From a virus: a stretch of DNA of 21,676 nt. Under the pieces are notes generated by a model. The model worked only from the letters and a program-made list of their open reading frames with translations, was not told where the DNA came from and did not search any database. The stretch lies in the IMG/VR virus record IMGVR_UViG_3300047550_003972, positions 1 to 21,676 of that record. The stretch is one strand, 5' to 3'. This document shows positions 4,858 through 20,843 of the stretch, in pieces (position 1 is the first letter of the stretch; each line of letters starts with the position of its first letter). A program made the translations under genes and the position numbers.

Positions 4858-4865
4858 TATAAGTC

Positions 4866-5690
4866 GTGAATCTTTCTGTAGGATTATCTGGGTGTCATCT
4901 TGAATTAATAGAAGATAGAATCATTAGAAAATATTCTACATCTAATGATTATAATAAAAGACTTTTATCACAGGCACAAAAACAAATTTTATTTTCACAA
5001 AGAATTTTTAAAAATATAGATACTCCAAAAATATATGACATAGGAGATAACTATTTTGATATGGAATATATTTCTGGACATAATTTTTTAGATTTCTTTT
5101 TAACATCTTCAATCAATGATGTTGAATTTATAATTGATACTTTATTTTACTATTTTGATTCCTTGTTATCTAACTATCAAAATATTAATATTCAGTCTAA
5201 TATTTTAAACAAAGTAGGTGATCTAAGGGAAAAAAGCGCATATAAAAATTATTTACAAAATATTGAGAAATTTGTAAAAAGTAACAATACATTTGTTCCT
5301 AAAACACTTTGTCATGGGGATCTTACTTTTACAAATATTATTTTTCACAAAAATAGACTTTTCTTTATTGATTTTCTTGATTCTTATATTGATAGTTTTA
5401 TTTGTGATTTAGTTAAACTCAAACAGGATTTGTATTATCTTTGGAGTATCAAAGTTCAAAAAATACAATCTAATAGACTTGAACAAATCTATAAACATAT
5501 TTGGAAAAAACTTTCCCAAAGATATTCTGAGTTTATTAATAGTGATGTTTTTGATGTTCTTGATGCAATGAACATGATAAGGATTGAACCTTACTTGACT
5601 TCTTCTCACCAAAGAACTATACTGGAAATAATAATAAAATCTACAAAATTATATGAGAACTTTAGTAGTTCCTATGGCGGGACGATCTAG
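4866..5690 (+). CDS. APH/choline-kinase-fold small-molecule kinase
   Basis: The frame starts at GTG 4866, eight bases after gmd, with no strong ribosome-binding site; the 274-aa length suits the family. The kinase signature HGDLTFTNIIF lies near residues 150-160 (catalytic D152, metal-binding N157) and IDFLDS near 168-173 supplies the DFD-like metal ligand. This is the layout of aminoglycoside phosphotransferase, choline kinase and LicA-like enzymes. It overlaps the next gene, a nucleotidyltransferase-HAD fusion, by 38 bases. By analogy with capsule loci, such kinases phosphorylate a small polyol, amino alcohol or sugar that is then activated with a nucleotide. The substrate cannot be read from the sequence. 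It is very A/T-rich. Confidence 0.78.
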   Translation: MNLSVGLSGCHLELIEDRIIRKYSTSNDYNKRLLSQAQKQILFSQRIFKNIDTPKIYDIGDNYFDMEYISGHNFLDFFLTSSINDVEFIIDTLFYYFDSLLSNYQNINIQSNILNKVGDLREKSAYKNYLQNIEKFVKSNNTFVPKTLCHGDLTFTNIIFHKNRLFFIDFLDSYIDSFICDLVKLKQDLYYLWSIKVQKIQSNRLEQIYKHIWKKLSQRYSEFINSDVFDVLDAMNMIRIEPYLTSSHQRTILEIIIKSTKLYENFSSSYGGTI

Positions 5691-6711
5691 CCGTTTTCCA
5701 AATATGAGACCAAAATGGATGCTTACCCATCCAATGACAAATCGCTTTATGGTTACGGAATCTATTCTTGGATTGAACTTAGATTTTTTTGATAACATTT
5801 ATTTTATTTGTCTTCAAGAACATCAAGATGAATATAAGTTTATGAAAGGTTTACTTTCGGAACTTGATGAACTTGGTTTGAGTAAAAAAACTAATATTGT
5901 TTTATTACCTCATCAAACAAATTCTCAATCTGAAACTGTTTATACATTTATTACTACTCAAAATTTAGAAGGATTTATATACATTAAAGATAGTGATGGT
6001 TACTATGAGTGTGAAATAATTGAAGAAAAAAATCAAGTTGCATACTTTGATTTAAATGACATGGATAATATTAATGCTAGAACTAAAAGTTATATTGAAT
6101 TTGACATTAATTCTATTTTAACTAATATTGTAGAAAAAAAAGTTATAAGTTCTACATTTTCTAGCGGTGGTTATGGATTTTCTGATGCAAAGGAATTTTG
6201 CAACACTTATGAGAAATTGCAGAACATGAGTGGTGAATGCTACATTAGTCACATTATTTTTGAAATGATGTTATCTGGATCTATATTTTATGGATCAAAA
6301 ACTTATAATTTCAAAGATTGGGGAACGATTGATTCGTGGAATAGATACAAGTCGCAATACAAATGTTTGTTTGTGGACATTGACGGAACTCTGGTTACAA
6401 ATTCATCTATACATTTTCCCCCATATATTGGTAACGGAAACTCATTACAAAGTAATATTGATTATTTAAATAGTTTACATTCATCTGGAATGGTTAAAAT
6501 AGTTTTAACCACCAGTAGACCAAAAAGTATGAGAGATAAAACTATTTTTGAGTTGGATAAAAAACAAATAAGATATGATGAATTAATAATGGGATTGCCT
6601 CATTGTAAGAGAATCATTATTAATGATTTTGCAAAAAGTAATCCATATCCATCATGTGAAGCGATCAATATTCCAAGAAACAATGATAATTTAAAGGAGT
6701 TTTTTCAATGA
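5653..6711 (+). CDS. Nucleotidyltransferase-HAD phosphatase fusion
   Basis: This 352-aa protein has two domains. Residues 1-230 are a nucleotidyltransferase: the opening VVPMAGRSSRFPNMRPKWML has the G-x-S-x-R-F...P-K signature that binds NTP, and the end (FKDWGTIDSWNRYK) resembles sugar-phosphate nucleotidyltransferases. Residues about 236-352 are a HAD-type hydrolase with motif I FVDIDGTLV, motif II VLTTSRP, and the late motif CKRIIINDFA. Fusions of this kind occur in capsule gene clusters beside APH-like kinases and are thought to make an NDP-activated alcohol or sugar. It overlaps the kinase by 38 bases and the following SDR gene by ATGA. The product could not be assigned; CTP is a reasonable guess as donor. 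Confidence 0.78.
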   Translation: MRTLVVPMAGRSSRFPNMRPKWMLTHPMTNRFMVTESILGLNLDFFDNIYFICLQEHQDEYKFMKGLLSELDELGLSKKTNIVLLPHQTNSQSETVYTFITTQNLEGFIYIKDSDGYYECEIIEEKNQVAYFDLNDMDNINARTKSYIEFDINSILTNIVEKKVISSTFSSGGYGFSDAKEFCNTYEKLQNMSGECYISHIIFEMMLSGSIFYGSKTYNFKDWGTIDSWNRYKSQYKCLFVDIDGTLVTNSSIHFPPYIGNGNSLQSNIDYLNSLHSSGMVKIVLTTSRPKSMRDKTIFELDKKQIRYDELIMGLPHCKRIIINDFAKSNPYPSCEAINIPRNNDNLKEFFQ

Positions 6712-7706
6712 AGATACTTTTAACAGGAGCAGCCGGTGGAATTGGATCTACATTGGGATATTTCTTATATAAGAAAGGACATACTCTTACACTTATTGAT
6801 AATTTAAGAAATGGTTATTTAGAAAATTTAACCATTAATGACGAAACTTTTGGGCAATTTTATAATATTAACATCTGCGATAAAAATATTATTAATCTAC
6901 TTAAAGATGAATATGATTGTATTATTCATCTTGCGGCAATCACTTCTCTTCCTGACTGTGAAACTAATGCCGTCGAAACTATTGATGTGAATGTTTCTGG
7001 TACGATGAATATTCTTGAGTGTGCAAGAGCATGGAATGTACCTCATGTAATTTTTTCTAGTACTAGTGCAGTGTATGAAAATAATAAACAAAAAATTTTT
7101 TCTGAAGATTTAGAAGTAAATCCAAGACTTTGGTATTCATTATCTAAAAAAATGGCAGAAGAAATTTGTCAATCATATCGGATTAATTATAATATGACAA
7201 TTACTACCCTAAGATTTTTTAATGTCTTTGGTCCAAGACAAGATATTCATAGAAAAAATCCTCCACTTATCAATTATATTGTTAAACAAATTTTAAATAA
7301 AGAATCACCTGTATTGCATTCTGATGGTAATCAAAGAAGAGATTATGTTTATGTTGATGATGTTATTAACTTGATTGATTTGTGTTTAGATAAAAAACCT
7401 GATGATACTTTTAATGTATGTACTGGAAAATTAATCTCAGTAAATGAAATTTTAGATTGTATTTATGAAGTTCTTGGTACTGATATTAAACCAATGTATA
7501 GGGAAGCAAGTAAACTTTGGGATAATTATTCTGAGTTATTTGATGGAAAATACTCATTAGACAAACAAATTGTTGCAAAAGAAACCAATAAATATTCTAG
7601 AGGAACATATCAAAAAGCAAAAGAACTTTTGGGATGGGAACCTAATACTGATACTGAATTTTTGATTAAAAAAGTGATCAAAGAAATTTGTAATTCTATG
7701 CTATAA
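6708..7706 (+). CDS. NAD-dependent nucleotide-sugar epimerase/dehydratase (extended SDR)
   Basis: The 332-aa product starts MKILLTGAAGGIGSTLGYFL, with the GxxGxxG NAD site at residues 7-13 and D32 of LIDNL for the ribose. It has HLAAITSLPDC, SSTSAVY and the catalytic YSLSK (Y143, K147), then RFFNVFGPRQDIHRKNPPLI and the DYVYVDDV motif of UDP-glucose 4-epimerase/dTDP-glucose dehydratase relatives. It probably epimerises or dehydrates an NDP-sugar; GalE-like 4-epimerase is the nearest family but substrate is not resolved. AAGGAG at 6694-6699 is a good ribosome-binding site, and the start overlaps the preceding stop (ATGA), so it is coupled to the kinase/nucleotidyltransferase pair. Confidence 0.85.
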   Translation: MKILLTGAAGGIGSTLGYFLYKKGHTLTLIDNLRNGYLENLTINDETFGQFYNINICDKNIINLLKDEYDCIIHLAAITSLPDCETNAVETIDVNVSGTMNILECARAWNVPHVIFSSTSAVYENNKQKIFSEDLEVNPRLWYSLSKKMAEEICQSYRINYNMTITTLRFFNVFGPRQDIHRKNPPLINYIVKQILNKESPVLHSDGNQRRDYVYVDDVINLIDLCLDKKPDDTFNVCTGKLISVNEILDCIYEVLGTDIKPMYREASKLWDNYSELFDGKYSLDKQIVAKETNKYSRGTYQKAKELLGWEPNTDTEFLIKKVIKEICNSML

Positions 7707-7729
7707 TATGAATAATATAAAACTAATTG

Positions 7730-8668
7730 ATGATGGAAAAAAATTCTAGAATATTAGTTTGTGGTGCCAACGGAATGGTTGGGTCGGCAATTGTGAGGAA
7801 CCTTGAAAGTAAAGGTTACACAAATATTATGAAAGGAACTCGTCATATTGTAGATTTTGTAAATCAAGAAGAAACTGATGCTTTCTTCAAACTTTCAAAA
7901 CCAGAATATGTTTTTGTTGCCGCTGCCAAAGTTGGTGGGATTATGGCAAACAATAATTATAAGGCAGATTTTCTGTCTGAAAATCTTCGTATTCAAACTA
8001 ATATTATTGATTCATCTTATCGTTGGAATGTAAAAAAACTTCTGTTTCTCGGTTCTTCTTGCATTTACCCTAAGTTTGCAACACAACCGATTGTGGAGGA
8101 TCAGTTAATGACTGGTTCTCTAGAACCAACTAATGATGCTTATGCAATTGCTAAGATTGCTGGTATTATGTTGTGCCAGGCGTATAGGCATCAGCATGGT
8201 TTTAATGCTATTTCTTTAATGCCTACAAACCTTTATGGTCCTAATGATAACTTTGATCTAGAAACATCTCATGTTCTTCCTGGAATGATTGCTAAATTTC
8301 ATAATGCAGAAATTAATAATTTATCTCAAGTTAAATGTTGGGGTGATGGATCTGCGATGAGGGAATTTTTACATGTAGATGATCTTGCAGAGGCATGTTA
8401 TGTTTGTATGCAAAAATATGATGAGGTAGAACATATTAATGTTGGAACTGGTGAGGACATAACAATTAAAGAACTTGCACACACAATTTCTAATGTTGTT
8501 GGGTTTATTGGAGATATTGAGTGGGATACTGCAAAACCGAATGGAACACCCAGAAAGGTTTTGAATGTGGACAAAATTAAATCTCTTGGATGGAAACCTA
8601 AGATTGGTCTCCGTGAAGGGATTGAAAAAACTTACGAATGGTACAAAGAAAATGAAAAAAACTCTTAA
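7730..8668 (+). CDS. fcl: GDP-L-fucose synthase
   Basis: The 312-aa product (ATG 7730, with another ATG at 7733) matches GDP-fucose synthase: RILVCGANGMVGSAIVRNLE (NADPH site), FVAAAKVGGIMANN, the FLGSSCIYPKFA motif with the catalytic serine/cysteine, the YAIAK pair (Y138, K142), and MPTNLYGPNDNFDLETSHVL. It performs 3,5-epimerisation and NADPH reduction of GDP-4-keto-6-deoxymannose from Gmd to give GDP-L-fucose. It is separated from gmd by three genes but lies in the same unit. The two GT11 proteins downstream are likely users of the product. Higher GC than its neighbours suggests a different history. It overlaps the next gene by 17 bases. Confidence 0.95.
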   Translation: MMEKNSRILVCGANGMVGSAIVRNLESKGYTNIMKGTRHIVDFVNQEETDAFFKLSKPEYVFVAAAKVGGIMANNNYKADFLSENLRIQTNIIDSSYRWNVKKLLFLGSSCIYPKFATQPIVEDQLMTGSLEPTNDAYAIAKIAGIMLCQAYRHQHGFNAISLMPTNLYGPNDNFDLETSHVLPGMIAKFHNAEINNLSQVKCWGDGSAMREFLHVDDLAEACYVCMQKYDEVEHINVGTGEDITIKELAHTISNVVGFIGDIEWDTAKPNGTPRKVLNVDKIKSLGWKPKIGLREGIEKTYEWYKENEKNS

Positions 8669-9254
8669 AGAAATTCTAGAAGAATGTCATTTAAATATAT
8701 TTGATCAGGTTAATTTAAATATTGATCCAAATTATGGTACTGATAAAGGGGAACCGAAATCTTATATTGATGAATATTATGAAGAAAATTTTAAAAAGTA
8801 TAGGGAAAAAGATATAACACTAGTTGAAATTGGTGTTAGAAGTGGTGCATCTCTTAAATTATGGTCTGAATATTTCTGTGAAAAATCTAGAATTTATGGA
8901 TTAGATAATTTATATGATAAAGATACTCATTCTGTTCCAATTAATGAAGATTGGATTTCTTCAAAAAATGTTGAATATATTGTGGGAGATGCTTATACTG
9001 AAGAAGTTTGTGGTAAACTCCCAAATATTGATATATTAATTGATGATGGACCTCATACTTTTGAAAGTCATGTTAAACTTCTTCAATTGTATGTACCAAA
9101 GATGAACACTGGTGGTGTTATTGTAATTGAAGATATTTCATACGATCCAAATGATATCTATAATCATGTACCAGATTATTTAAAAGATACATCCTATGTT
9201 TGTGATTATGGTAATTATGATGATAAATTGATTATTATTGAGGGGTTTAATTGA
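8652..9254 (+). CDS. SAM-dependent methyltransferase (CmcI/macrocin O-methyltransferase-like)
   Basis: The start is taken at ATG 8652, giving 200 aa; the frame is open further upstream but only inside fcl. The Rossmann SAM-binding segment is LVEIGVRSGASLKLWSEYF at about residues 56-74, followed by YGLDNL (acidic residue for the SAM ribose), VEYIVGDAYTEE and DILIDDGPHTFESH, where paired aspartates fit the metal site of the CmcI-type O-methyltransferases. GGVIVIEDI closes the fold. Enzymes of this family methylate sugar hydroxyls in antibiotics and surface glycans. The position right after fcl suggests O-methylation of a deoxysugar, which is inference. It overlaps fcl by 17 bases. Confidence 0.82.
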   Translation: MKKTLKEILEECHLNIFDQVNLNIDPNYGTDKGEPKSYIDEYYEENFKKYREKDITLVEIGVRSGASLKLWSEYFCEKSRIYGLDNLYDKDTHSVPINEDWISSKNVEYIVGDAYTEEVCGKLPNIDILIDDGPHTFESHVKLLQLYVPKMNTGGVIVIEDISYDPNDIYNHVPDYLKDTSYVCDYGNYDDKLIIIEGFN

Positions 9255-9255
9255 T

Positions 9256-10098
9256 ATGTTACCGATCACATTAGTATCTACTTTATATGAAGAAAATTTT
9301 AAACAACATTTAAAAGATAATTCTTGGTTTAGAGAATTTCAAAGTAAGTATATTACTAAAAAAAGACTTATTATTAATAACTTATATTCTACTAAGGAAC
9401 TTGAAGATATTTTAAACGAACTTTATGATTCTTCAGAAGTTGAACTTGTTTATGTTGATGAACATGCGGATAGAGTAATTGAAAAATACAAATTAAATAT
9501 TGATAGGAATCATCATGCCTATAATTTTTGTGTCCCATATTTTGTAAATATTGATACATGTGAAACTCCATATTTTTTTAATGTATCTACTGATTGCTGC
9601 ATTGATATTCATATTGATGATGATTATTTTGCAAAATCTATTGATTTATTAGAAAATCATCCAGAGTATTCTGTTAAAGGATTGGCAACACGAGTGAGTC
9701 ATTGTAAATATTCGGAAGATAAAATTTATGAACATCCAACGAATGAAGTTGGTGAATGGGAGCAATTAAATTGTTTGGGGTTTGACGATAAGAAGATTTT
9801 GGAACATTTTTGGATTAGTAATGTGTTTAATGATCAAGTTTTTCTTGGAAAAACTAATAATTTTAAAAAACTAAAAGATTTAACAGAATTTGGAAAGAAA
9901 TATAAAGAAATATCTAAGGAAAGTTATGCTGAGTGGATGTCAGTAAGAAGTAAATATTCTGCAAGAGCAGGATTAGATGCATTTGAGTGTAAAGTATCTG
10001 ATTATCTTAGATTTAATGATATTTTTAACACGATATATAAATCAAAAACAACATATTATATTCATTCTGGACATATTGATGGTTCTAATATTAAATAA
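9256..10098 (+). CDS. Putative glycosyltransferase-like protein (280 aa)
   Basis: ATG at 9256 follows AGGGG at 9241-9245 and lies one base after the methyltransferase stop. The protein opens with a beta strand (LPITLVSTLYEENF), has a mid-region rich in aspartate (NVSTDCCIDIHIDDDYFAKS, around residues 115-134) that could serve as a DxD-type metal site, and later hydrophobic strands and helices. This pattern resembles GT-A type glycosyltransferases related to family 2, but the canonical family-2 opening is not present. The assignment rests on the opening strand, the acidic motif and the location among glycosyltransferases. It could instead be a glycan-related protein of unknown fold. Confidence 0.55.
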   Translation: MLPITLVSTLYEENFKQHLKDNSWFREFQSKYITKKRLIINNLYSTKELEDILNELYDSSEVELVYVDEHADRVIEKYKLNIDRNHHAYNFCVPYFVNIDTCETPYFFNVSTDCCIDIHIDDDYFAKSIDLLENHPEYSVKGLATRVSHCKYSEDKIYEHPTNEVGEWEQLNCLGFDDKKILEHFWISNVFNDQVFLGKTNNFKKLKDLTEFGKKYKEISKESYAEWMSVRSKYSARAGLDAFECKVSDYLRFNDIFNTIYKSKTTYYIHSGHIDGSNIK

Positions 10099-10110
10099 AT
10101 TTAAAAAAAA

Positions 10111-10800
10111 ATGACTACAAAAAAGATAATTGTATCCAATCATAATAGTGATTTAGAGTGGTTAAAAATGACCCATGAACATGGGTTTTCTTCAGATAAT
10201 ATTGTAATTTATGATAGGAGTGACATTGAAAAGGATTGGTCTCATTTGGGATTAAATATTAGATCGCCAAATGTTGGAGAAAATATATATGATATAATGA
10301 GATTTATTATAGAAAATTATGATTGTCTTCCTGATATTAGTATCTTTATAAAAGGAAATCTATTTTCTAGGACTGAAGATAGAGGAGGAACTAATTACTA
10401 CACTACAAAAGAAAAGTTTATTAGATCCTTAAATGCTAATTATTTTTTACCAATAGAAAGATATCATCCATCTACATCTATTTTTGTAAACGGCGGAAAC
10501 TTTATTGAACCTACTTGGTCTCCAAATAGCAGCATACCTAGAAAATATTTTTCCACATTTAATGAACTTTTAAATTTAATGTTTATAGATCCACCAAATC
10601 CCCCATTTAATAGATTTGCTCCAGGTGGAAACTATGTAGTTCCTAAAGGTAATATTCTAAAATATAGTATAAAATTTTATAAAAAATTGCAAATGTATTG
10701 CTCTCATATAGAGCATCATACTTGTGCTGAAGCATTTTTAATCGAAAGACTTCTTTATATGATGTGGACTGAAGATCTAATAGAAAAGGAGGACTTATGA
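10111..10800 (+). CDS. DUF3431-like putative glycan-modifying protein (229 aa)
   Basis: The protein has features I associate with the DUF3431 family: NVGENIYDIMRFIIENYDCL, then PDISIFIKGNLFSR (residues about 50-90), followed by FAPGGNYVVPKGNILKYSIK and a final helix with a histidine/glutamate-rich stretch (EHHTCAEAFLIERLLYMMW). DUF3431 proteins occur in fungi, protists and giant or tailed viruses and are suspected sugar-transfer enzymes, though activity is not established. The ATG at 10111 follows a 12-base spacer of A/T and lacks a Shine-Dalgarno; the end overlaps the next gene (ATGA), which has a strong AGGAGG site inside this gene. The family call is from memory of motifs. Confidence 0.55.
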   Translation: MTTKKIIVSNHNSDLEWLKMTHEHGFSSDNIVIYDRSDIEKDWSHLGLNIRSPNVGENIYDIMRFIIENYDCLPDISIFIKGNLFSRTEDRGGTNYYTTKEKFIRSLNANYFLPIERYHPSTSIFVNGGNFIEPTWSPNSSIPRKYFSTFNELLNLMFIDPPNPPFNRFAPGGNYVVPKGNILKYSIKFYKKLQMYCSHIEHHTCAEAFLIERLLYMMWTEDLIEKEDL

Positions 10801-11684
10801 AAGTATTTGATGTATTTTTATTTTTTAATGAATTGGATCTTTTAGAGATTCGTTTAAATATGCTTTATCCTTTCATTGATTATTTTGTAATCAATGAAGC
10901 AACTCAAACTTTTTTTGGATCTGATAAACCACTTTATTATCTTGAAAATAAAGAAAGATTTAGAAAATTTGAAGATAAAATTATTCATAATATTATTGAA
11001 CCTCCTACAGTTGAACAACTTGATAGTATGGGTGAAAAATATGGAACTTTGGTGAGATGCCATCAGATGGATGCATATCAAAAAGACAGTATCTCACGAG
11101 AACTATCAAACAAATGTTCTCCAGATGATGTAATTATTTGGAGTGATCTTGATGAAATTCCAAATCCGGAAGTGATTGAAAATCTAAAAGATTTTTATGA
11201 ACCAAATAAGGTTTATAATTTTGCCCAAGAATATTGTATGTGTTATTTGAATATGGTTGAAAAGACTGGAATTTTTAGATCACAAACTCCAGATTTTGAT
11301 TATGATAGTTATCCTAAATGGTTGGGAACAAAATTGTTTAGTTTTAGTCTTTTAACTAAGTATTCTCTTACCGATATTAGAAGAGAACTTATGAATGAAG
11401 AGAATATTAGAATTTCTCCTGGGGGGTGGCATTGGACATATGTTGGTAGTAATGGTCTTTCTGTAGAGGAAAGAGTTCTTACTAAGATTAGTAGTGCAGC
11501 ACATCAAGAGTATAATAATGATTCTGTAAAATTTTCTATTTCTAATCATTTAAGATCTAATAATGATCCACTGGGTCGTGGTGGATGTAAATATGAAATT
11601 GTTGAAATTGATAATACTTATCCAAAGTATATTCTCGATAATTTAGAAAAATATTCTTATTTGATTAAAGATGTTAGCAACTGA
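10797..11684 (+). CDS. GT17-family glycosyltransferase
   Basis: The 295-aa product begins MKVFDVFLFFNELDLLEIRL, then LYPFIDYFVINEATQTFFGS and KPLYYLEN, the conserved start of glycosyltransferase family 17, the family of beta-1,4-mannosyl-glycoprotein beta-1,4-N-acetylglucosaminyltransferase. The metal/nucleotide-binding motif SDLDEIPN lies at residues 116-123 (D117, D119, E120). The later GGWHWTYVG and the HQEYN segment also fit. In bacteria and phages members transfer sugars to surface glycans. A strong AGGAGG (10788-10793) and an ATGA overlap with the preceding gene indicate efficient, coupled translation. Donor and acceptor are unknown. It overlaps the next gene by 14 bases. Confidence 0.85.
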   Translation: MKVFDVFLFFNELDLLEIRLNMLYPFIDYFVINEATQTFFGSDKPLYYLENKERFRKFEDKIIHNIIEPPTVEQLDSMGEKYGTLVRCHQMDAYQKDSISRELSNKCSPDDVIIWSDLDEIPNPEVIENLKDFYEPNKVYNFAQEYCMCYLNMVEKTGIFRSQTPDFDYDSYPKWLGTKLFSFSLLTKYSLTDIRRELMNEENIRISPGGWHWTYVGSNGLSVEERVLTKISSAAHQEYNNDSVKFSISNHLRSNNDPLGRGGCKYEIVEIDNTYPKYILDNLEKYSYLIKDVSN

Positions 11685-12564
11685 AATACTTAATGGGCAG
11701 GGAATTGGTAATCAATTATTTTGTTATGTAACTACAAGATCTATTGCTCATGATAGGGGATTAGAATTTGGTATTAAGGACAGTGGGTGGAGTGGTGATA
11801 GACGGTATAATCAGAATGGATTTTACTGGTTGGATCTTGATATGGGAGAACCTGTTCCCAATGAAATGGAAGTTTATTATGAAAAAGATGTAAGACTGAA
11901 ATTGAATACTTGCCTACATGATATGACTCATGGTTGTGATATAAGAAAATATGATTCTAATTTAGTTAATGTTTCGGACAACACATTAATATTTGGTAAT
12001 ATGCAAGATGAAAAATATTTTATTCACAATAAAAATCTTGTGAAATACTGGTTAAAGGTTAAGTCCGAATATGATACTTATGAGTATACTGATGATAATG
12101 TTTGTATATTAAATTTTAGGGGTGGAGAATATGTTGGACATCATGAACTTTATTTGACTAGAAAGTATTGGATTGATGCTATGAATAACATGACTAAAAT
12201 TAATCCAGATATGGAATTTTTTGTCATTACTGATGATGTAAAGGCGTCTCAAGATATGCTTCCAGAAATTCCAGCATACCACTTCTCTGTTGACAAAGAT
12301 TATGCTATAATTAAAAATTCTAAGAATGTAATATTATCAAATTCTAGTTTTCCATTTTTTGCTGTGTTTACTAGCGATACAATTGAAAATATTATTGCCC
12401 CAAAATATTGGGCAAGACATAATATTTCTAATGGATATTGGTCTATGGCTCAAAATATGTATTGTGGATGGACCTATCAAGATAGAGAAGGTAAACTTCA
12501 GACTTATGAAGAATGTTTAACGGAATTTCAAGAATATTCAATTCAAAATAATCTTTATGTATAA
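11671..12564 (+). CDS. Divergent GT11-like (fucosyltransferase-type) glycosyltransferase
   Basis: The 297-aa protein opens LNGQGIGNQLFCYVTTRSIA, the G-x-G-NQLFQYA-like start of family 11 alpha-1,2-fucosyltransferases, and keeps ILSNSSFPFFAVF, similar to the N-S-S-F-S-W-W block, and a terminal IIAPKYWAR. The GDP-contact motif HxRRxDY of the classical enzymes is replaced by LNFRGGEYVG, so the arginine pair is reduced to one and donor use may differ. The full-length match to the fold is good. GDP-fucose from Gmd/Fcl is the likely donor. It overlaps the preceding gene by 14 bases and its stop falls within the RmlA-like relic that follows. Confidence 0.72.
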   Translation: MLATEILNGQGIGNQLFCYVTTRSIAHDRGLEFGIKDSGWSGDRRYNQNGFYWLDLDMGEPVPNEMEVYYEKDVRLKLNTCLHDMTHGCDIRKYDSNLVNVSDNTLIFGNMQDEKYFIHNKNLVKYWLKVKSEYDTYEYTDDNVCILNFRGGEYVGHHELYLTRKYWIDAMNNMTKINPDMEFFVITDDVKASQDMLPEIPAYHFSVDKDYAIIKNSKNVILSNSSFPFFAVFTSDTIENIIAPKYWARHNISNGYWSMAQNMYCGWTYQDREGKLQTYEECLTEFQEYSIQNNLYV

Positions 12565-12616
12565 GGGAATTATCTTTGCAGGTGGGCAAGGAACAAGATT
12601 ATATTCAAGGATTTGA
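12557..12616 (+). pseudogene. Relic of an RmlA-like sugar-nucleotidyltransferase N-terminus
   Basis: A 19-codon frame from ATG 12557 to TGA 12614-12616 encodes MYKGIIFAGGQGTRLYSRI. This reproduces the conserved opening of glucose-1-phosphate thymidylyltransferases (K-G-I-I-L-A-G-G-x-G-T-R-L-Y), including the dTTP-binding G-G-x-G-T-R-L loop, then stops where the enzyme would continue for another 270 residues. The rest of the gene is absent: the next gene begins 15 bases later. The start overlaps the preceding gene by 8 bases in the manner usual in this operon, so the intact gene presumably sat here and was cut by a deletion. It is too short to be functional. Confidence 0.75.
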
Positions 12617-12631
12617 ATAAAAAAACTTTTG

Positions 12632-13474
12632 ATGAATGTGAAAAGTATGTTTGAAAAAATTTCTGTTTATGGTGGAACTGGATTTATTGGGGGATCTTTT
12701 TGTAATATTTTTTCTGATCAAGTTATAAAAATACCAAGAGATTCTAGAAAACCACAATCCAAAGATATTCTTTATTTCATTAGTACCACTACAAATTATA
12801 ATGTATTTGAAGATCTTCATGTAGATATCAATACTAATTTGAATCTTCTTATGGAAGTACTTGAGCATTGTAAGGATGAAGATATTGTTTTTAATTTCGT
12901 AAGTTCTGGATTTGTTTATGGATTGGATATAATAGATGCAAAGGAAACTGATATTCCAGATCCTAGAGGATTTTATTCAATTACAAAACGGACAGCGGAA
13001 CAGTTATTAATTTCATTTTGTGAAACTTTTGGATGTAAGTATCGCATATTTCGTCTTGCTAATGTTTATGGAACAGATAAAACAGTTTCTTCAAAGAAAA
13101 ATGTTTTGGGATTCTTAATAAACAAGTTAAAAAATAATGAGGATATTCAACTTTATGATGGTGGACTTGTCCTTCGTGATTATATGCATGTTGATGATGT
13201 TTCACGAGCAATTAAACATCTTATAGACCGTGGATCTGAAAATCAAATATATAATATTGCTTCTGGACATCCACAGTATTTTTGTGATATAATTCAATTG
13301 GCAGTTGATAGTTTATGCAATTCCAGAAGTAAAATTATATCTGTAGAAACTCCAAAATTTTACGCAAATACACAAGCAAAAAATTTCTCTTTAAATGTTG
13401 AGAAATTAAATAGTTTAAATTTTAAATCAAGTGTCCCTCTTAGTGTTGGAATCGATCTATTATGTACCAATTAA
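12632..13474 (+). CDS. NAD-dependent sugar epimerase/reductase (SDR), probable deoxysugar enzyme
   Basis: The best start is ATG 12632 (280 aa); ATG 12647, which gives MFEKISVYGGTGFIGGSF, is nearly as good. The GxxGxxG-type site YGGTGFIGG sits near the N-terminus and the catalytic YSITK gives Y115 and K119 in the longer form. RIFRLANVYGTD and LRDYMHVDDVSRAI are typical of extended SDRs acting on nucleotide sugars. It lies between an RmlA-like relic and an RfbH-type dehydratase and overlaps the latter by 13 bases, so it may be the 4-ketoreductase or epimerase completing a 3,6-dideoxyhexose, in the way RfbJ or ColC do. That role is inferred from context only. Confidence 0.78.
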   Translation: MNVKSMFEKISVYGGTGFIGGSFCNIFSDQVIKIPRDSRKPQSKDILYFISTTTNYNVFEDLHVDINTNLNLLMEVLEHCKDEDIVFNFVSSGFVYGLDIIDAKETDIPDPRGFYSITKRTAEQLLISFCETFGCKYRIFRLANVYGTDKTVSSKKNVLGFLINKLKNNEDIQLYDGGLVLRDYMHVDDVSRAIKHLIDRGSENQIYNIASGHPQYFCDIIQLAVDSLCNSRSKIISVETPKFYANTQAKNFSLNVEKLNSLNFKSSVPLSVGIDLLCTN

Positions 13475-14760
13475 TTGATAATTTTATCAAGTCTACTAAA
13501 GAAATTGATAATGATATTTTTCCTTTTTTAGCAAATAAAAAAAATTTTAATCCAGAAACTGATTCAGTTTATTATTCTGGACCTTACTGGGATGATGAAG
13601 AAATTACTGAAATGATTCATTCAATTCTGAAAGGAAAATGGTTATCTTCTGGAGAAAAGGTTCATAAGTTTGAAAAACAATTTTCTAAAAAGTTTGGATT
13701 TGATTATTCTGTAATGGTTAATTCTGGTAGTTCTGCTAATCTTGTAATGATTGCAGCTCTTAAGAAATATTTTGGTTGGGAAGATGGGGATGAGATTATT
13801 GTATGTGCCTGTGGATTTGCTACTACAGTTGCTCCTATTGTTCAAAATGGATTGAAACCTGTTTTTGTTGATATTGATTGGTCTGATTTAAATTGGGATC
13901 TTGATCAAGTAGAACAAAAAATTTCTTCCAAAACTGTAGCAGTTATTTCTTCTCCTGTTCTTGGAAATCCTTATGATATCGATAGACTTGTTGATATTTG
14001 TAAAGCAAAGAGTATTCATTTGATTGCTGATAATTGTGATAGTCTTGGTAGTAAATGGCGAGGAAATTATTTGACTGATTATGCCGTTGCTGCTTCTTGT
14101 TCATTCTATCCTGCACATCATATTTGTACTGTAGAAGGAGGAATGGTTTCTTCTAATATTAAAGAAGTTGTAGATCTTGCTCGTAGTTTTGCTTGGTGGG
14201 GTCGTGATTGTTATTGTGTTGGTCAGCAAAATCTTCTTTCTTGTGGAACTTGTGGTAAGAGATTTGACAATTGGTTGGAAGGATATGATGGAATTGTTGA
14301 CCATAAGTATATTTTTTCTAACATGGGATATAATTTAAAACCTCTTGATCTTCAAGGTGGATTGGGATCCGTGCAGATTGGAAAATTTGAGGATATTCAT
14401 CGTATTCGTAGAGAGAACAAGAAAAAAATTGGAGATATTGTTGAAACTATTTCTGGTGTAAGAGTTGTTGGTGAAAAAGAAAAATCAGAAACAAGTTGGT
14501 TTGGAGTGCCAATTGTTTGTGAAAACAAGCAAATAAAAGAGACTTTAGTTGCTCATTTGGAAAAAAATAAAATACAAACTAGAAATTATTTTGCTGGTAA
14601 TATTCTTCTTCATCCTGGATATAAACATCTTGATGATGCAAGTAAATATCCAAATGCAAATCAAGTATTGAGTAAAGTCTTCTTCTTAGGTTGTTCACCA
14701 ACTATTACAAATGATATGATTACTTATATTGGAAAAGTTGTAAGTCAATATAAACCATGA
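13462..14760 (+). CDS. rfbH: RfbH/E1-type PLP- and Fe-S-dependent NDP-4-keto-6-deoxyhexose 3-dehydratase
   Basis: The 432-aa product has the DegT/StrS aminotransferase fold (NSGSSANLVMIAAL, GDEIIVCACGFATTVAPIVQ, LIADNCDSLGSKW) but the PLP-lysine is replaced by histidine: SFYPAHHICTVEGG, with H219-H220. Loss of that lysine is the hallmark of the 3-dehydratases RfbH/AscC (E1) and ColD. The cysteine cluster GRDCYC...CGTCGKRF (C250, C252, C261, C264) and HKYIFSNMGYNLKPLDLQG match RfbH/E1, which bind a [2Fe-2S] cluster, unlike ColD. Length fits too (E1 about 437). It removes the 3-hydroxyl to form a 3,6-dideoxyhexose precursor (abequose, paratose, tyvelose, ascarylose type). RfbF and RfbG, which make the CDP-4-keto substrate, are not in view. 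Confidence 0.88.
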   Translation: MYQLIDNFIKSTKEIDNDIFPFLANKKNFNPETDSVYYSGPYWDDEEITEMIHSILKGKWLSSGEKVHKFEKQFSKKFGFDYSVMVNSGSSANLVMIAALKKYFGWEDGDEIIVCACGFATTVAPIVQNGLKPVFVDIDWSDLNWDLDQVEQKISSKTVAVISSPVLGNPYDIDRLVDICKAKSIHLIADNCDSLGSKWRGNYLTDYAVAASCSFYPAHHICTVEGGMVSSNIKEVVDLARSFAWWGRDCYCVGQQNLLSCGTCGKRFDNWLEGYDGIVDHKYIFSNMGYNLKPLDLQGGLGSVQIGKFEDIHRIRRENKKKIGDIVETISGVRVVGEKEKSETSWFGVPIVCENKQIKETLVAHLEKNKIQTRNYFAGNILLHPGYKHLDDASKYPNANQVLSKVFFLGCSPTITNDMITYIGKVVSQYKP

Positions 14761-15431
14761 TTGAACTACCGCAGGTAACTTTAATTTGTACTTCTTCCGT
14801 ACAAATGGATAGAGTTTATTACTCTTTTTATAAAAGTACAGAAAAAATTAATTTTGGAGAAGTTAAATTAGTATCTCACCAAAAACCTAAAGATTTACCA
14901 GATTTTATCTCATATGAAGAATGTTATGAGATAAAATCTAAAGATGATTATAGTTATTATTGCATTTACAATTTAACTAATCATGTAAATACTTCACATT
15001 GTTTGATAATTCAACCTGATAGTTTTGTAATCAATCCTGAAATGTGGGATGATTCTTGGTTGGAATATGATTATATTGGCGCTCCTTGGGAATATTCTGA
15101 GGGTGCTTATATTGATCCTTGGGGAAATCATCAAAGAGTAGGTAATGGTGGGTTTTCTTTAAGAAGTAAAAAACTCTTAGAAGTTCCTAAAAATGCTTAT
15201 GTTCATTTTGATGTTAATTATGGAAATTTTTATAAGCATATGAACGCAAATAATTTTGCCGAGGATGGAAATATATGTGTTCATAATCGCCATATATACG
15301 AAGTCTTAGGGTGCAAATTTGCGCCAGTGGAAGTTGCCGCCAGATTTTCACAAGAAAAACAAACTCCCGAAACATTAGGTATAATTCCTTTTGGATTTCA
15401 TTCAATTCTTCCTACAGGTACTAAGTTATGA
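14757..15431 (+). CDS. DUF5672-type putative glycosyltransferase (224 aa)
   Basis: The protein has the features I recall for DUF5672: an N-terminal strand (PQVTLICTSSVQMDRVYYSF), then CLIIQPDSFVINPEMWDDSW with an acidic residue at the donor site, YDYIGAPWEYS, VGNGGFSLRSKKLLE and a later NNFAEDGNICVH containing the E-D pair. This is a GT-A-like family found in bacteria, algae and large or tailed viruses and is usually annotated as a glycosyltransferase. It begins in an ATGA overlap with rfbH and ends in an ATGA overlap with the next gene, so it is translated as part of the chain. The donor is unknown; a dideoxysugar from the previous enzyme is a possibility. Confidence 0.72.
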   Translation: MIELPQVTLICTSSVQMDRVYYSFYKSTEKINFGEVKLVSHQKPKDLPDFISYEECYEIKSKDDYSYYCIYNLTNHVNTSHCLIIQPDSFVINPEMWDDSWLEYDYIGAPWEYSEGAYIDPWGNHQRVGNGGFSLRSKKLLEVPKNAYVHFDVNYGNFYKHMNANNFAEDGNICVHNRHIYEVLGCKFAPVEVAARFSQEKQTPETLGIIPFGFHSILPTGTKL

Positions 15432-16297
15432 AATTTATAATTTGGGGACATAAACTTCATACACATACCCATTCATATATTCATAGTGCATATAATAAGA
15501 CATTTAAATATCTTGGTTATGAAACTTATTGGGTAGATAATAGAGACGATTTGAGTTCAATTGATTTTTCGGATGCAGTCTTTTTTGTTGAGGGATCTGT
15601 TAGTGGTGATATGCCGAGAATTGCAACCTGCAAGTATATTGCACATCATGTTGACAATGAAAATTTAATTTCTTCTGGAATTCCTTTTGAAAATATTTTA
15701 AATCTTGGTAATTATCTTCCTAGAGAGGAAGTTCATGAGAAGGTTGAAGATCTTGCATATTGGGATAAAAATACTAGAACTCTCTATCAATGTTGGGGAA
15801 CTGATCTACTTCCTCATGAGATTGATGTTGATGGATATGTTCCATTTAACCCTTCAAGAAAAACTTTAAATTATGTTGCAATGCTTTATGAGCAAGGTCC
15901 TTGGTGGGCAGAAGAATTTGCAACTTTATTAGATCGTGATTTTGGTGTAGAATTTAAAGTTTTTACTCAGCATGTAAGTCATAAAGAAAATATTCAATTA
16001 ATAAGAGAATCATTTTTATGTCCAGATTTTAGAAGTGATTGGCATTTGGAATGTGGATATATTCCTTGTAGAATGTGGAAGAATATTAGTTATGGTAGAA
16101 TTACTGGAACTAATTCCCCATATGTTAAAAGGGCATTGGGAGATTATGTAGTATTTGGTGGAACACCTCAAACATTGTACCAAAATCTTTTGTTTGCTGA
16201 ACAGAATCGTTCAATTAATATGAAAGATGCTATGATGTTTGTGAGGGATAAACATACATTTATCAATCGTGTAAATAATATTTTGAAGTTCTTATGA
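15428..16297 (+). CDS. Putative glycosyltransferase-like protein (289 aa)
   Basis: The protein opens MKFIIWGHKLHTHTHSYIHS, a strand followed by a histidine-rich loop, then YLGYETYWVDN and AVFFVEGSVSGDMPRIATCK, resembling the N-terminal Rossmann domain of GT-B glycosyltransferases. The second half has LNYVAMLYEQGPWWAEEFAT, FKVFTQHVSHKENIQLIRES and GYIPCRMWKNISYGRITGTN, the pattern of a C-terminal donor-binding domain in which an R/K...E/N region grips the nucleotide. No precise family was recognised. ATGA overlaps with both neighbours place it firmly in the glycan operon. A glycosyltransferase is the most likely role, but it is an inference from fold pattern and context. Confidence 0.6.
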   Translation: MKFIIWGHKLHTHTHSYIHSAYNKTFKYLGYETYWVDNRDDLSSIDFSDAVFFVEGSVSGDMPRIATCKYIAHHVDNENLISSGIPFENILNLGNYLPREEVHEKVEDLAYWDKNTRTLYQCWGTDLLPHEIDVDGYVPFNPSRKTLNYVAMLYEQGPWWAEEFATLLDRDFGVEFKVFTQHVSHKENIQLIRESFLCPDFRSDWHLECGYIPCRMWKNISYGRITGTNSPYVKRALGDYVVFGGTPQTLYQNLLFAEQNRSINMKDAMMFVRDKHTFINRVNNILKFL

Positions 16298-17076
16298 TAG
16301 GTTTTAATCATTTAGGTCGTCATGGACGACTTGCCAATCAAATGTTTCAGTATGCGGCACTTAGAGGTATTGCGTCATTGAAAGGATATAATTTTTGTAT
16401 ACCTCAATCTGATTTTAAAAATGAATGGGAAGATCATCAATTATTTTTAACTTTTAAATTGAGTAATTTAAAAAATATACAAAGTCTTTCGGGCAATTAC
16501 TATCAAGAAAAACAATTTAATTATGATAATGAATATGTGGAAAATTGTCCAGATAATGTAAATTTATATGGATATTTTCAGTCAGAAAAATATTTTAAGC
16601 ATATTGAAGAGAGCATAAGAGAAGATTTTTTGTTTAAGGATGAAATTTTTGATTCTTGTAAGCAATTCTTTAACTTCGATGAAATTATTTCTTTGCATGT
16701 TAGGAGAACTGATTATGTTTCTAATTCGGAAAATCATCCACCGTGCTCGTTAGAATACTATGAAAAATCTTTGAGTATGTTTTCTGATAATATTCCAGTG
16801 ATGATTTTTTCTGATGATCCTCAGTGGTGTAAAGAGCAAAATTTGTTTAGTTCTGATAGATTTTTAATTTCTGAAAATGAATGGAATGCCATTGATCTTT
16901 GCCTAATGTCTTTATGCACTCATCATATTATTGCTAATAGTTCTTTTAGTTGGTGGGGAGCATGGTTATCTAAATCTAAAAATGTAGTTGCACCATCTAG
17001 ATGGTTTGGTGATAATGCATATACTTCGCAACATAATACCCGTGACTTGATTCCAAATGATTGGAAAATTATATGA
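16294..17076 (+). CDS. Alpha-1,2-fucosyltransferase (GT11)
   Basis: The 260-aa product carries the full family-11 signature: GRLANQMFQYAALRGIA near residue 10, the GDP-fucose-binding HVRRTDYV at about 135-142, IFSDDPQWCKEQ, and NSSFSWWGAWLS from residue 215. It transfers L-fucose from GDP-fucose, usually in alpha-1,2 linkage to galactose. This fits the Gmd and Fcl genes upstream, which make the donor. It is the second GT11 gene in the window and the more canonical one. It starts in an ATGA overlap with the previous gene and ends in an ATGA overlap with a GT2 gene. Confidence 0.92.
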   Translation: MIGFNHLGRHGRLANQMFQYAALRGIASLKGYNFCIPQSDFKNEWEDHQLFLTFKLSNLKNIQSLSGNYYQEKQFNYDNEYVENCPDNVNLYGYFQSEKYFKHIEESIREDFLFKDEIFDSCKQFFNFDEIISLHVRRTDYVSNSENHPPCSLEYYEKSLSMFSDNIPVMIFSDDPQWCKEQNLFSSDRFLISENEWNAIDLCLMSLCTHHIIANSSFSWWGAWLSKSKNVVAPSRWFGDNAYTSQHNTRDLIPNDWKII

Positions 17077-17828
17077 ATCCTAAAATTTCTATTGCTATTC
17101 CCACATATATTAATAATGAACTGCAACTTTCATATTTACGGTATTCATTTGATAAAATTTTAGAACAAACCTTTAAAAATTTTGAGGTTGTAATTTCCGA
17201 TAATTCTTTGAATACTTTTGTTGAAAATTTGTGTAATGAATACTCTGATTATTTTTCTATAATTTATTTTAAAAATTTAGATAAAGTAGGAATGTCTCAA
17301 AATTCAAATTCCTCAATGAAATTATGTAAAGGTGATTATATAAAAATATTGCATTATGATGATTTTCTATTTTCAAATAAGTCTTTAGAACTTATTGTAA
17401 ATAGTTTAGATAATAGTGATAATTATTGGTTAGTTAATGGATTTAATCATACACATGATGCCGTAAGTTTTTTTGATCCTAGAGTTCCAAAATATACAAA
17501 GTACTCTTTAATTGGAAATAATCTTCTTGGATGTCCTTCAAATGTTTCAATAAGAAATATTGATGTCCCAGATTATGATCCCAATCTTCATATGAGTATG
17601 GATGTTGAATGGTATCATAGAATTCGTATGTCCCACGGAATGCCCCTTATAATTGATGATGTTTTAACTACAAGTAGAATTCATAATAATAGTACAACTT
17701 CAAAAATTAATCTTGATGTTGTTATTGAAACTGAAGAAGGATCTTGGGAAAATGTTCAAAGTGAAATAAATTATCTTAACGAAAAATATAAAGATTTTTT
17801 TGAGACCTGGGAGTATCCTAATGATTGA
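17073..17828 (+). CDS. GT2-family glycosyltransferase
   Basis: The ATG at 17073 (251 aa) overlaps the previous stop. The protein starts MNPKISIAIPTYINNELQLS and has LEQTFKNFEVVISDNSLNTF, the usual start of family-2 GT-A enzymes, followed by NSSMKLCKGDYIKILHYDDF with the acidic nucleotide/metal motif (HYDDF, in place of DxD). The later HMSMDVEWYHRIRMSH matches the E-W/D catalytic region where a family-2 base resides. It adds a sugar to the growing glycan from an unknown donor. It overlaps the next gene by 8 bases. Confidence 0.87.
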   Translation: MNPKISIAIPTYINNELQLSYLRYSFDKILEQTFKNFEVVISDNSLNTFVENLCNEYSDYFSIIYFKNLDKVGMSQNSNSSMKLCKGDYIKILHYDDFLFSNKSLELIVNSLDNSDNYWLVNGFNHTHDAVSFFDPRVPKYTKYSLIGNNLLGCPSNVSIRNIDVPDYDPNLHMSMDVEWYHRIRMSHGMPLIIDDVLTTSRIHNNSTTSKINLDVVIETEEGSWENVQSEINYLNEKYKDFFETWEYPND

Positions 17829-18648
17829 TTTAACCAAAGCGACTTTTATTATTCCAATTCGTATTGAATCTGTTGATAGATTAAGAAATGTAATTACAGT
17901 ACTTTCTTTTCTTTTGGAAAATTTTAAAACTAATATTATAATCAAAGAAGTTGATACTGAATCTATATTTAAAAAGGATGCAGTTCCTATTTTAAATGAT
18001 ATCCTTGATGTTGATATTAATATAAATCATATTTTTGAAAAAAGTGATCAATCGTCATTTCATAGACAAAAAATTTTAAATGAAATGATAATAGAAACAG
18101 ACACTGATATTGTAGTTAATTATGATTGTGATGTTCTTCTTCCAATAACTTCTTATCAACAAGCATATCAAAGTATATTGAGTGGAAAATATGATATAGT
18201 TTATCCTTATGGAATTGGAACATATCAAAAACAAGTAAGAGCAACTGACGAAATAGTTTCGGAGTTTTTAGAGACTGGAAATTTTAGTATTTTGAATGAT
18301 AATTCTACAGATTACATGTCTGAATTTGGTTGGGTGCAATTTTTTACCAGACGGGTATATATTGAAGGTGGAATGGAAAATGAAAATTTTGTAGCATATG
18401 CCCCAGAAGATAAAGAAAGATTTTACAGATTTTCTACTTTAGGGTATAATATAGGTAGAATAAATGATATTGTTTATCATTTAGAACATTCTAGAGGAGA
18501 AAATTCTTGGTTTTCAAATCCTCATATGTATTCAAATAATTCCGAGTGGGAAAAAATTCAAAAAATGAATCTCTCAGAATTAAAAGAATATTATTCCAAT
18601 CAAGATTATTTAAAAAGGTATAAAGATGACACAAAGTTCATTGTCTAA
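17821..18648 (+). CDS. GT2-like glycosyltransferase (galactosyltransferase-type C-terminal domain)
   Basis: ATG 17821 (275 aa) is preceded by GGGAG at 17810-17814. The frame is open further upstream but only inside the preceding gene. Early strands (KATFIIPIRIESVDRLRNVI), the metal motif VVNYDCDVLLP (D-C-D) and a C-terminal block (GGMENENFVAYAPEDKERFY, then RINDIVYHLEHSRGENS) resemble the two-part layout of chondroitin-polymerase-like and galactosyltransferase (7C) family-2 enzymes, where the E-D and H residues of the second block help catalysis. It overlaps the FkbM methyltransferase gene by 23 bases. Donor and acceptor are unknown. Confidence 0.78.
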   Translation: MIDLTKATFIIPIRIESVDRLRNVITVLSFLLENFKTNIIIKEVDTESIFKKDAVPILNDILDVDININHIFEKSDQSSFHRQKILNEMIIETDTDIVVNYDCDVLLPITSYQQAYQSILSGKYDIVYPYGIGTYQKQVRATDEIVSEFLETGNFSILNDNSTDYMSEFGWVQFFTRRVYIEGGMENENFVAYAPEDKERFYRFSTLGYNIGRINDIVYHLEHSRGENSWFSNPHMYSNNSEWEKIQKMNLSELKEYYSNQDYLKRYKDDTKFIV

Positions 18649-19357
18649 TGCATATGTTGCTGGACAACTTCCAACAAATACACAAGATAATCATAAGTTA
18701 TATACTTCTATTGAATGGGAGCATACTGAATACTTTTCCGAAGTAATTAAATATTTGAAAGAACAGAACATAAAGTCTTTCATGGATATTGGAGGTTGCA
18801 CGGGTGAAGTTTCAAATGTTATTTTGAACCATATACCAACTATAGAACATGGTCTCATTTTTGAACCACATCCTATTAATTGTGAGTATATAAAGGAAAA
18901 TATTAATCTTGATAAAATTAAACTTGAAAACAAAGCGGTTTTTTATGGTGAAAAATCTATTAGTCTGTCCATTAGAGGTCCTAATGTAGGATCTTGGTCA
19001 TTTTTATTTTCTGAACAATATCCAGAAAATTCTTTTGAAGTTGAATGTGTTGAATTAGATGATTATTTGTCTGAATATGAATATGATTTTATAAAAATTG
19101 ATATTGAAGGTTCTGAATTTAATCTTCTTGAAAATTCTACTTTATTGAAAGAAGTAAAATATATTGAACTTGAAGTTCATCATGAACATTTTGGTATGTA
19201 TATGGGGGGTAAAAATAGCAAATATGATTCGGCAATTGATTTTGTTCTAAATTATTTACCTAATCATGAGGTTCTTTACTTTCTGACATCTGATTTTGAA
19301 AATGAAAATTCAAATCCAGGAACAAATTCCGGAAACATATTCTTAGTTAAAAAATAA
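18626..19357 (+). CDS. FkbM-family methyltransferase
   Basis: The 243-aa protein has SFMDIGGCTGEVSNVIL (SAM-binding glycine-rich loop, D54 region), GLIFEPHPINCEYIKENINL and the FkbM hallmark YDFIKIDIEGSEFNLLENS, in which D-I-E-G-S-E is diagnostic. FkbM enzymes are O-methyltransferases of natural products and cell-surface glycans. It has a good AAGG ribosome-binding site 7 bases before the ATG, and lies inside the end of the GT2-like gene. It is the second methyltransferase of the island, so the final glycan is probably capped or decorated with more than one methyl group. Confidence 0.9.
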   Translation: MTQSSLSNAYVAGQLPTNTQDNHKLYTSIEWEHTEYFSEVIKYLKEQNIKSFMDIGGCTGEVSNVILNHIPTIEHGLIFEPHPINCEYIKENINLDKIKLENKAVFYGEKSISLSIRGPNVGSWSFLFSEQYPENSFEVECVELDDYLSEYEYDFIKIDIEGSEFNLLENSTLLKEVKYIELEVHHEHFGMYMGGKNSKYDSAIDFVLNYLPNHEVLYFLTSDFENENSNPGTNSGNIFLVKK

Positions 19358-20148
19358 TGGATAGAAATAAATCTACTTATAAACTTAAAGGTCTTCCTCC
19401 AATATATTATTTAAATCTGGATGGACAACCAGATAGAAATCAATATATGGAAGATCAGTTTAAGTATTGGGAAATAGAAAATTATACGAGAATCTCTGCC
19501 TATGATGGTCGTAATGATGATCTGAGTGATATTATTAAAGGTAGATACCCAGATAACATGACTTCTGGTGAGATTGGTTGCACTACCTCTCATCTTAGGG
19601 CAATTAAATATTGGTATGATAATTCTGATAGTCCATATGCTATTTTTATGGAAGATGATGTTGATTTACAACTTGTGAAATTTTGGAATTTTACCTGGCA
19701 GGATTTTGCATCTAAAATTCCTTATGATTGGGATGTAATTCAACTTGCAATTATTTGTACTGGAGATCTTCATATTAAATTACATAAAAGATTTGTAAAT
19801 GATTTTTCTACAGCTGCATACATGGTAACTCGTCATCATGCCGAAAAATTATTAAAGTTTCATATACGCGATGGAAAATATAAATTGGATCAAGGTGTGA
19901 AACCAAGAGCAGTTGCTGATGATTTGATTTATAATTCTGGAAACACTTTTTCTATTCCAATTTTTCTTTATCGTATTGAATTGGGTTCCTCCATTCACCC
20001 AGAACATATTGATATATTTCATAAAGCAAGTCATAATGGTCTTCTTGAATATTGGAAAAATAAAGGATATGATATGTCTATTGATGATTTGATGAATTAT
20101 GATCCTTATCTTGGGCGCGTTACACAACACTCCCAGGTTCAACAATAA
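19357..20148 (+). CDS. GT25-family glycosyltransferase
   Basis: The 263-aa product begins with LPPIYYLNLDGQPDRNQYME, the N-L-x-x-x-x-D-R start of family-25 (LPS biosynthesis) enzymes, then YTRISAYDGR, TSGEIGCTTSHLRAIK, and AIFMEDDVDL near residue 99, where the E-D-D motif binds metal and nucleotide. FSTAAYMVTRHHAEKLL also fits the family. It is the last gene of the glycan island: its start overlaps the preceding stop by one base (TAATG), and a terminator begins 34 bases after its own stop. GT25 enzymes act in LPS outer core and O-antigen, so this supports a surface-glycan role. Confidence 0.9.
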   Translation: MDRNKSTYKLKGLPPIYYLNLDGQPDRNQYMEDQFKYWEIENYTRISAYDGRNDDLSDIIKGRYPDNMTSGEIGCTTSHLRAIKYWYDNSDSPYAIFMEDDVDLQLVKFWNFTWQDFASKIPYDWDVIQLAIICTGDLHIKLHKRFVNDFSTAAYMVTRHHAEKLLKFHIRDGKYKLDQGVKPRAVADDLIYNSGNTFSIPIFLYRIELGSSIHPEHIDIFHKASHNGLLEYWKNKGYDMSIDDLMNYDPYLGRVTQHSQVQQ

Positions 20149-20486: not shown

Positions 20487-20550
20487 TACGAGTGTGAGTT
20501 TGCTGGTATTGCTGGCGTACTCTGTAGAAAAACTTTGTGAGACTTACTAA
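20464..20550 (+). CDS. Very small membrane peptide (28 aa)
   Basis: ATG 20464 to TAA 20548-20550, with a one-base overlap with the ferredoxin start (TAATG). The peptide is a single hydrophobic helix ([20 protein letters not shown]) with a charged C-terminus (EKLCETY), like the small accessory subunits of photosynthetic complexes, although no specific one was recognised. The promoter at 20458-20486 lies across its first codons, so it could be translated only from transcripts coming through hli. The exact stop/start junction and membrane character favour a real gene, but chance is possible. Confidence 0.5.
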
Positions 20551-20843
20551 TGACTACTTATAACATTACTCTCCAATCTCCCGATGGCACTGAAATCACT
20601 ATTCAGTGTCCTGACGATCAATATATTATGGACGCTGCCGAAGAGGCAGAAGTTGATCTTCCATTCAGTTGCCGTGCGGGTGCTTGCTCTGCTTGTGCTG
20701 GCAAATTGATCAGTGGTACTGTAGATAATGAGGACCAATCTTTCCTAGATGATGAACAGGTTGCTGAAGGTTGGGTTCTTACTTGTGTGGCATATCCCAC
20801 TAGCGATTGTGTGATCCTCACTGAACAGGAGGAGAACCTGTGA
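20550..20843 (+). CDS. petF: Plant-type [2Fe-2S] ferredoxin
   Basis: The 97-aa protein matches chloroplast-type ferredoxin in length and motif: CRAGACSAC supplies cluster ligands C41, C46 and C49, and VLTC supplies C79. The fold is acidic, as expected for docking to PSI and ferredoxin-dependent reductases. It accepts electrons from photosystem I and could supply phage-encoded or host reductases (for example for pigments, nucleotides or nitrogen). It lies directly before plastocyanin, and its end overlaps the plastocyanin start (TGATG). It has higher GC than the glycan island and resembles host genes. Confidence 0.95.

Follow-up and report, generated by a model that had tools for sequence, protein, structure and literature searches.

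A putative sugar 3-dehydratase and an SDR, encoded by overlapping genes in the sugar island of a T4-like cyanophage, would form a module for C3-deoxygenation and C4-reduction, which on balance probably gives a dTDP-3,6-dideoxyhexose from dTDP-4-keto-6-deoxyglucose. The window, by which we mean the whole stretch of DNA analysed (21.7 kb), is an IMG/VR virus record whose best DNA matches are Synechococcus phages, and it is probably a fragment of a phage genome. The sugar island, at about 3850–20148, is flanked by tRNA genes and by an hli/petF/petE block. The tRNA region to its left also encodes a ferritin-like (Dps-type) protein (PF00210; 511–1080).

The original prediction held that a 3,6-dideoxyhexose in a phage island would be notable. 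An RfbH-type gene in a phage is not new in itself, as it is present in public Synechococcus phages and ascC/ddhC/rfbH have been listed as marine viral auxiliary genes (PMC10653327). What is likely to be new is the separate clade of the dehydratase, its link to RmlB, a deletion scar, the contrast between phages and hosts and the probable dTDP substrate. The scar and the RmlB/RmlC link, neither of which formed part of the original prediction, point to dTDP-4-keto-6-deoxyglucose.

The dehydratase and its SDR partner

The dehydratase gene (13462–14760, plus strand) encodes a protein of 432 aa with a DegT/DnrJ/EryC1 domain (PF01041, 244 bits). Its best PDB match is E1, the CDP-4-keto-6-deoxyglucose 3-dehydrase (3bcx, E=2e-69). 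In the residue alignment with 3bcx, H219 falls on the catalytic H220 of E1, which is the PLP-lysine position, and C192, C250, C252 and C264 fall on the cluster cysteines C193, C251, C253 and C261. All five residues are unchanged in 84/84 phage homologues, the phage records and loci counted throughout being fragments or related genomes and many of the loci near-copies. The AlphaFold model has a good fold (pTM 0.83), with low confidence in the cysteine loop 246–292, and a Foldseek search of this model against the PDB returned E1 (3bcx) first and ColD next. On the strength of the E1 match, the alignment of H219 and the four cysteines, their invariance and the AlphaFold/PDB result, the protein is very probably a PMP-dependent [2Fe-2S] sugar 3-dehydratase of the E1 type with a predicted four-cysteine cluster site. 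An aminotransferase is rejected, since His replaces Lys in every phage homologue. The histidine, the four-cysteine cluster and the 3-dehydratase chemistry had all been proposed from the sequence of the window, and the residues together with the tree position on the RfbH side (see below) bear this out. A further cysteine of the window enzyme, C261, is replaced by Asn in 29/84 phage homologues and is therefore not the ligand.

The SDR, of the extended type and a putative C4-ketoreductase, is encoded on the plus strand at 12647–13474, in an ORF open from 12629 that overlaps the dehydratase gene at its 3′ side by 13 bp; the YxxxK motif is kept. The start is more likely ATG 12647 than ATG 12632, because the former overlaps the stop of the leftover rmlC 3′ end (ATGTTTGA) and homologues in bacteria begin at the equivalent position; ATG 12632 falls within that remnant. 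An SDR is present in 70/84 phage loci and lies at most 1.5 kb upstream of the dehydratase in 49 of the 84. The two genes also adjoin in Prochlorococcus, Nostocales, Bacteriovoracaceae, Nitrosomonadaceae and others, unrelated bacteria included. Thus the SDR, predicted earlier to be coupled to the dehydratase, is by its gene neighbourhood a regular partner of it. In the record of phage S-B43 (MN018232.1), RmlB and the SDR (56263–58505) are about 36 kb from the dehydratase (93845–95140), against about 6 kb or less in near relatives; a rearrangement or an assembly error in the record is possible.

A clade beside RfbH

Against the RfbH family PRK15407 (NCBIfam) the dehydratase scores 368.4 bits, below the cutoff of 423. 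In a tree of 64 proteins it belongs to a clade with 45 members from phages and bacteria (support 99/94) that is sister to the classical RfbH/E1 clade (support 100/99), and ColD-like proteins without the cluster cysteines branch outside the Fe-S group. Consequently, the enzyme is not RfbH itself, as had been proposed. The suggested placement within the RfbH/ColD phylogeny holds in that it lies on the RfbH side, but it occupies a clade of its own, with the ColD-like proteins outside. Actinomycete homologues over the RfbH cutoff, which probably include SpnQ-like enzymes, group with classical RfbH and not with the window clade; as these score as classical RfbH, membership of a clade is not enough to reveal the nucleotide.

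The window enzyme shares with E1/RfbH/AscC/DdhC (3bcx; PRK15407) the fold, the His replacing Lys, the four cysteine ligands and about 36% identity. It differs in its separate clade, its score under the family cutoff and the lack of RfbF/RfbG alongside. No dedicated E3 reductase gene was seen beside it either: a motif search of the 84 phage loci, which are fragments, detected no long ORF with a plant-type 2Fe-2S motif, and the neighbours in relatives of the window are RmlA, RmlB and RmlC. ColD, the GDP-4-keto-6-deoxymannose 3-dehydratase (2gms), has the same aminotransferase-like fold and His replacing Lys, but lacks the cysteine cluster, is linked to Gmd and lies outside the Fe-S clade. With SpnQ, a dTDP-4-keto-2,6-dideoxyglucose 3-dehydrase (PMC8987622), the likeness is one by description and concerns the Fe-S and PMP chemistry; use of a dTDP sugar and of a general ferredoxin-type donor, both presumed for the window enzyme, would extend it. 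SpnQ acts after a 2,3-dehydratase, and none was noticed among the annotated neighbours of the window-type pair. As for an SpnQ-type supply of dTDP sugar, RmlA/RmlB genes are linked to the pair in many relatives and the window holds remnants only.

Supply genes, substrate and rival routes

Over the curated cutoffs, RmlB was found in 29 of 50 related phage records, Gmd in 4, and RfbF and RfbG in none. The window likewise has neither RfbF nor RfbG, so that their absence, first noted there, extends to the wider set of related phages. The end of RmlB is less than 700 nt from the SDR start in 26/84 phage loci. Phage loci L006 and L008 have an intact cassette of a cytidylyltransferase-like gene, RmlB, RmlC, SDR and dehydratase (in L008, RmlB 419 bits, cutoff 365, and RmlC 255 bits, cutoff 156). 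Other arrangements are the tightly packed phage operons L067 (RmlA-like, SDR, dehydratase and RmlB-like, with overlapping ORFs), L046 (RmlB at 390 bits, over the cutoff, then SDR and dehydratase) and AG-345-D19 (RmlB-like at 359 bits, SDR and dehydratase). In bacteria, locus L095 carries RmlA (388 bits, cutoff 361) and RmlB (441 bits, cutoff 365) divergent from the pair, L096 and L113 share this layout, and L105 has the order RmlB, RmlA-like, dehydratase, SDR. Among named phages, six records encode the dehydratase with at least 60% identity. All six also have the SDR and rank among the top seven for RmlB, but five of them are closely related and these are therefore not six independent events. 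In L010–L014 many other sugar-island genes lie between the dehydratase and RmlB, and the module can thus be split within one island.

Directly upstream of the pair, the window has 42 bp (12565–12606) where L008 has 1915 bp. Window 11601–12564 corresponds to L008 6267–7230 (84.5%) and window 12607–13700 to L008 9146–10239 (88.5%); the gene order of the two islands is the same and the L008 enzyme is 89% identical to the window dehydratase. The 1915 bp of L008, between a GT11-like gene and the SDR, hold the cytidylyltransferase-like gene, rmlB and most of rmlC. On the plus strand at 12557–12616 the window keeps a remnant ORF, MYKGIIFAGGQGTRLYSRI followed by a stop, that looks like the signature start of an RmlA-type sugar-1-phosphate nucleotidyltransferase (glucose-1-phosphate thymidylyltransferase). 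Its BLOSUM62 score is 56 against a true RmlA start and at most 44 against the RfbF starts compared; the next best 15-mer in the window scores 24 against the RmlA start. No intact copy of it turned up when the degenerate motif KGIIFAGGQGTRLY was searched for in viral contigs. The second remnant (12607–12654, plus strand; about KDLNKKTFDECEKYV and a stop) matches the end of the intact RmlC of L008 (KDLKGKTFEECEKYD and a stop), its own stop overlapping the SDR start codon. The scar, the RmlA-like start and the RmlC tail thus indicate that the window phage lost supply genes at this place. Since RmlB/RmlC are deleted here, the phage would take dTDP-4-keto-6-deoxyglucose from its host; the lost genes could also lie elsewhere in the phage genome, the record probably being a fragment.

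From these gene neighbourhoods, dTDP-4-keto-6-deoxyglucose is the substrate that we favour with moderate confidence. Weighing against it, RmlB and RmlC beside the pair may instead serve rhamnose-like sugars, about 40% of the 50 records, all probably fragments, have no RmlB over the cutoff, and the cytidylyltransferase-like gene that often opens the RmlB–RmlC–SDR–dehydratase cassette could mean a CDP-linked product. This last gene and the E1 match, with RfbH as the family name at 368 bits, would suit RfbH-like action on CDP-4-keto-6-deoxyglucose from the host or from phage RfbF/RfbG not seen here. We consider this classical route unlikely, because the opening gene (PF01467; for example L008 7193–7744) has an HldE/TagD fold and is not RfbF, no related phage record has RfbF or RfbG over the cutoff, and the dehydratase lies under the RfbH cutoff in a sister clade. 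Moreover, a Nitrosomonadaceae genome (G053) keeps classical RfbH, RfbF and RfbG together on one contig and the window-type pair elsewhere.

In favour of a GDP-linked substrate, the island that holds the pair also encodes, 9 kb upstream of it, an intact Gmd (GDP-mannose 4,6-dehydratase; 3850–4857, plus strand; TIGR01472, 564 bits, cutoff 415), and Gmd is also over the cutoff in L007, L030, L049 and L070. Its product, GDP-4-keto-6-deoxymannose, would be used as in colitose synthesis, a ColD-like possibility that the original prediction had raised. However, the cluster cysteines are missing from ColD-type enzymes, which fall outside the Fe-S group, and Gmd is over the cutoff in only four of the 50 records, two of which also have RmlB. 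The window Gmd has, besides, a partner of its own, a GDP-L-fucose synthase-like SDR that uses the Gmd product (7727–8668, plus strand; NF047922, 466 bits, cutoff 500), and two GT11-type genes for whose products GDP-fucose would be the substrate. It is better assigned to GDP-fucose synthesis, as a separate module that probably does not supply the dehydratase, and the GDP route appears decidedly improbable. Finally, the pair might make nothing in the window phage, as a decaying leftover of supply-gene loss, and the scar with its rmlA-like and rmlC remnants fits such an origin. Against this, dN/dS relative to relatives is about 0.08–0.13 for the dehydratase gene and 0.12–0.17 for the SDR, so that both are under purifying selection; neither has a frameshift, and the end branch of the window dehydratase is no longer than those of its relatives. 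As most host-family genomes could also supply the substrate, we regard decay as very unlikely.

The dTDP pathway that we propose, and for which we infer nucleotide, stereochemistry and electron donor, would begin with dTDP-4-keto-6-deoxy-D-glucose, made by RmlA and RmlB (those of the host in the case of the window phage), entering the dehydratase. The substrate would form a Schiff base with PMP, H219 would take the proton and the C3 hydroxyl would leave. Electrons from a general donor, not a dedicated E3, would then pass through the iron–sulphur cluster and reduce the resulting 3,4-glucoseen. The SDR would then reduce the C4 ketone to yield the dTDP-3,6-dideoxyhexose, and glycosyltransferases of the island would attach this rare type of sugar to a surface glycan. 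RmlC beside the pair in related phages suggests an L-configured sugar there.

SpnQ has been reported with ferredoxin or flavodoxin plus their reductases (PMC8987622), and a host or phage ferredoxin is therefore a plausible electron donor by analogy. The window encodes a putative donor, a PetF-type 2Fe-2S ferredoxin (20550–20843, plus strand; PF00111, 85 bits). The idea of the phage ferredoxin as a pathway-specific donor is weakened by the presence of petF in 279 phage records, which makes it general to cyanophages.

Distribution and possible role

The pair is common in viruses of marine cyanobacteria and rare in their hosts. Relatives of the dehydratase are encoded by 560 IMG/VR stretches, a count not corrected for redundancy. 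Among host-family genomes the dehydratase was found in 3/251 and RmlB over the cutoff in 72/101; most hosts could therefore supply the substrate without owning the pair. The same gene, about 75% identical and accompanied by the SDR in a comparable sugar island, is present in Synechococcus phages S-B43, S-B05, RB11-B, RN05-S and S-H68. Unlike the window, these phages retain RmlB, RmlC and the cytidylyltransferase-like gene next to the SDR. The annotations of their homologues vary between CDP-sugar dehydratase, aminotransferase and hypothetical protein; that of S-H68 reads CDP-sugar 3-dehydratase. A literature search combining cyanophage and dideoxyhexose found no report.

Sugar 3-dehydratases are credited in a review with three preferences, for CDP-4-keto-6-deoxyglucose (E1), GDP-4-keto-6-deoxymannose (ColD) and dTDP-4-keto-2,6-dideoxyglucose (SpnQ) (PMC8987622). 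We tentatively suggest that the window clade may be a further substrate class of Fe-S sugar 3-dehydratases, one whose members act on dTDP-4-keto-6-deoxyglucose itself and draw electrons from photosynthetic ferredoxin. Cyanophages might use them to put a 3,6-dideoxyhexose on hosts mostly without the pathway and so alter the host surface during infection. If this were true, a dTDP-4-keto-6-deoxyglucose enzyme would add to the three preferences and the database labels of many phage and bacterial genes would change. Cyanophage LPS clusters have been described, and in 2010 it was still undecided whether they serve a function or are stuffer DNA (PMC3037559). The purifying selection, the regular co-occurrence with the supply module and the rarity in hosts argue for function, and the dehydratase–SDR pair provides a defined reaction to test. 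A role in defence or counter-defence is rejected, PADLOC having given no match.

The window genes at 3850–8668 follow one another as Gmd, an APH-type kinase (4866), ORF 5653, an epimerase-like SDR (6708) and the GDP-fucose synthase. By eye, the product of ORF 5653, which has no Pfam or NCBIfam match, is nucleotidyltransferase-like at its N-terminus and HAD phosphatase-like at its C-terminus. The APH, 5653-type and 6708-type genes are ordered in L024 as in the window, hinting at a second sugar module. Locus L085 (DKPS01000090.1), labelled Saprospiraceae, is a contig in a bacterial genome bin that bears the phage island; most of its genes are 77–95% identical to cyanophage loci, and it is therefore probably a misbinned cyanophage.
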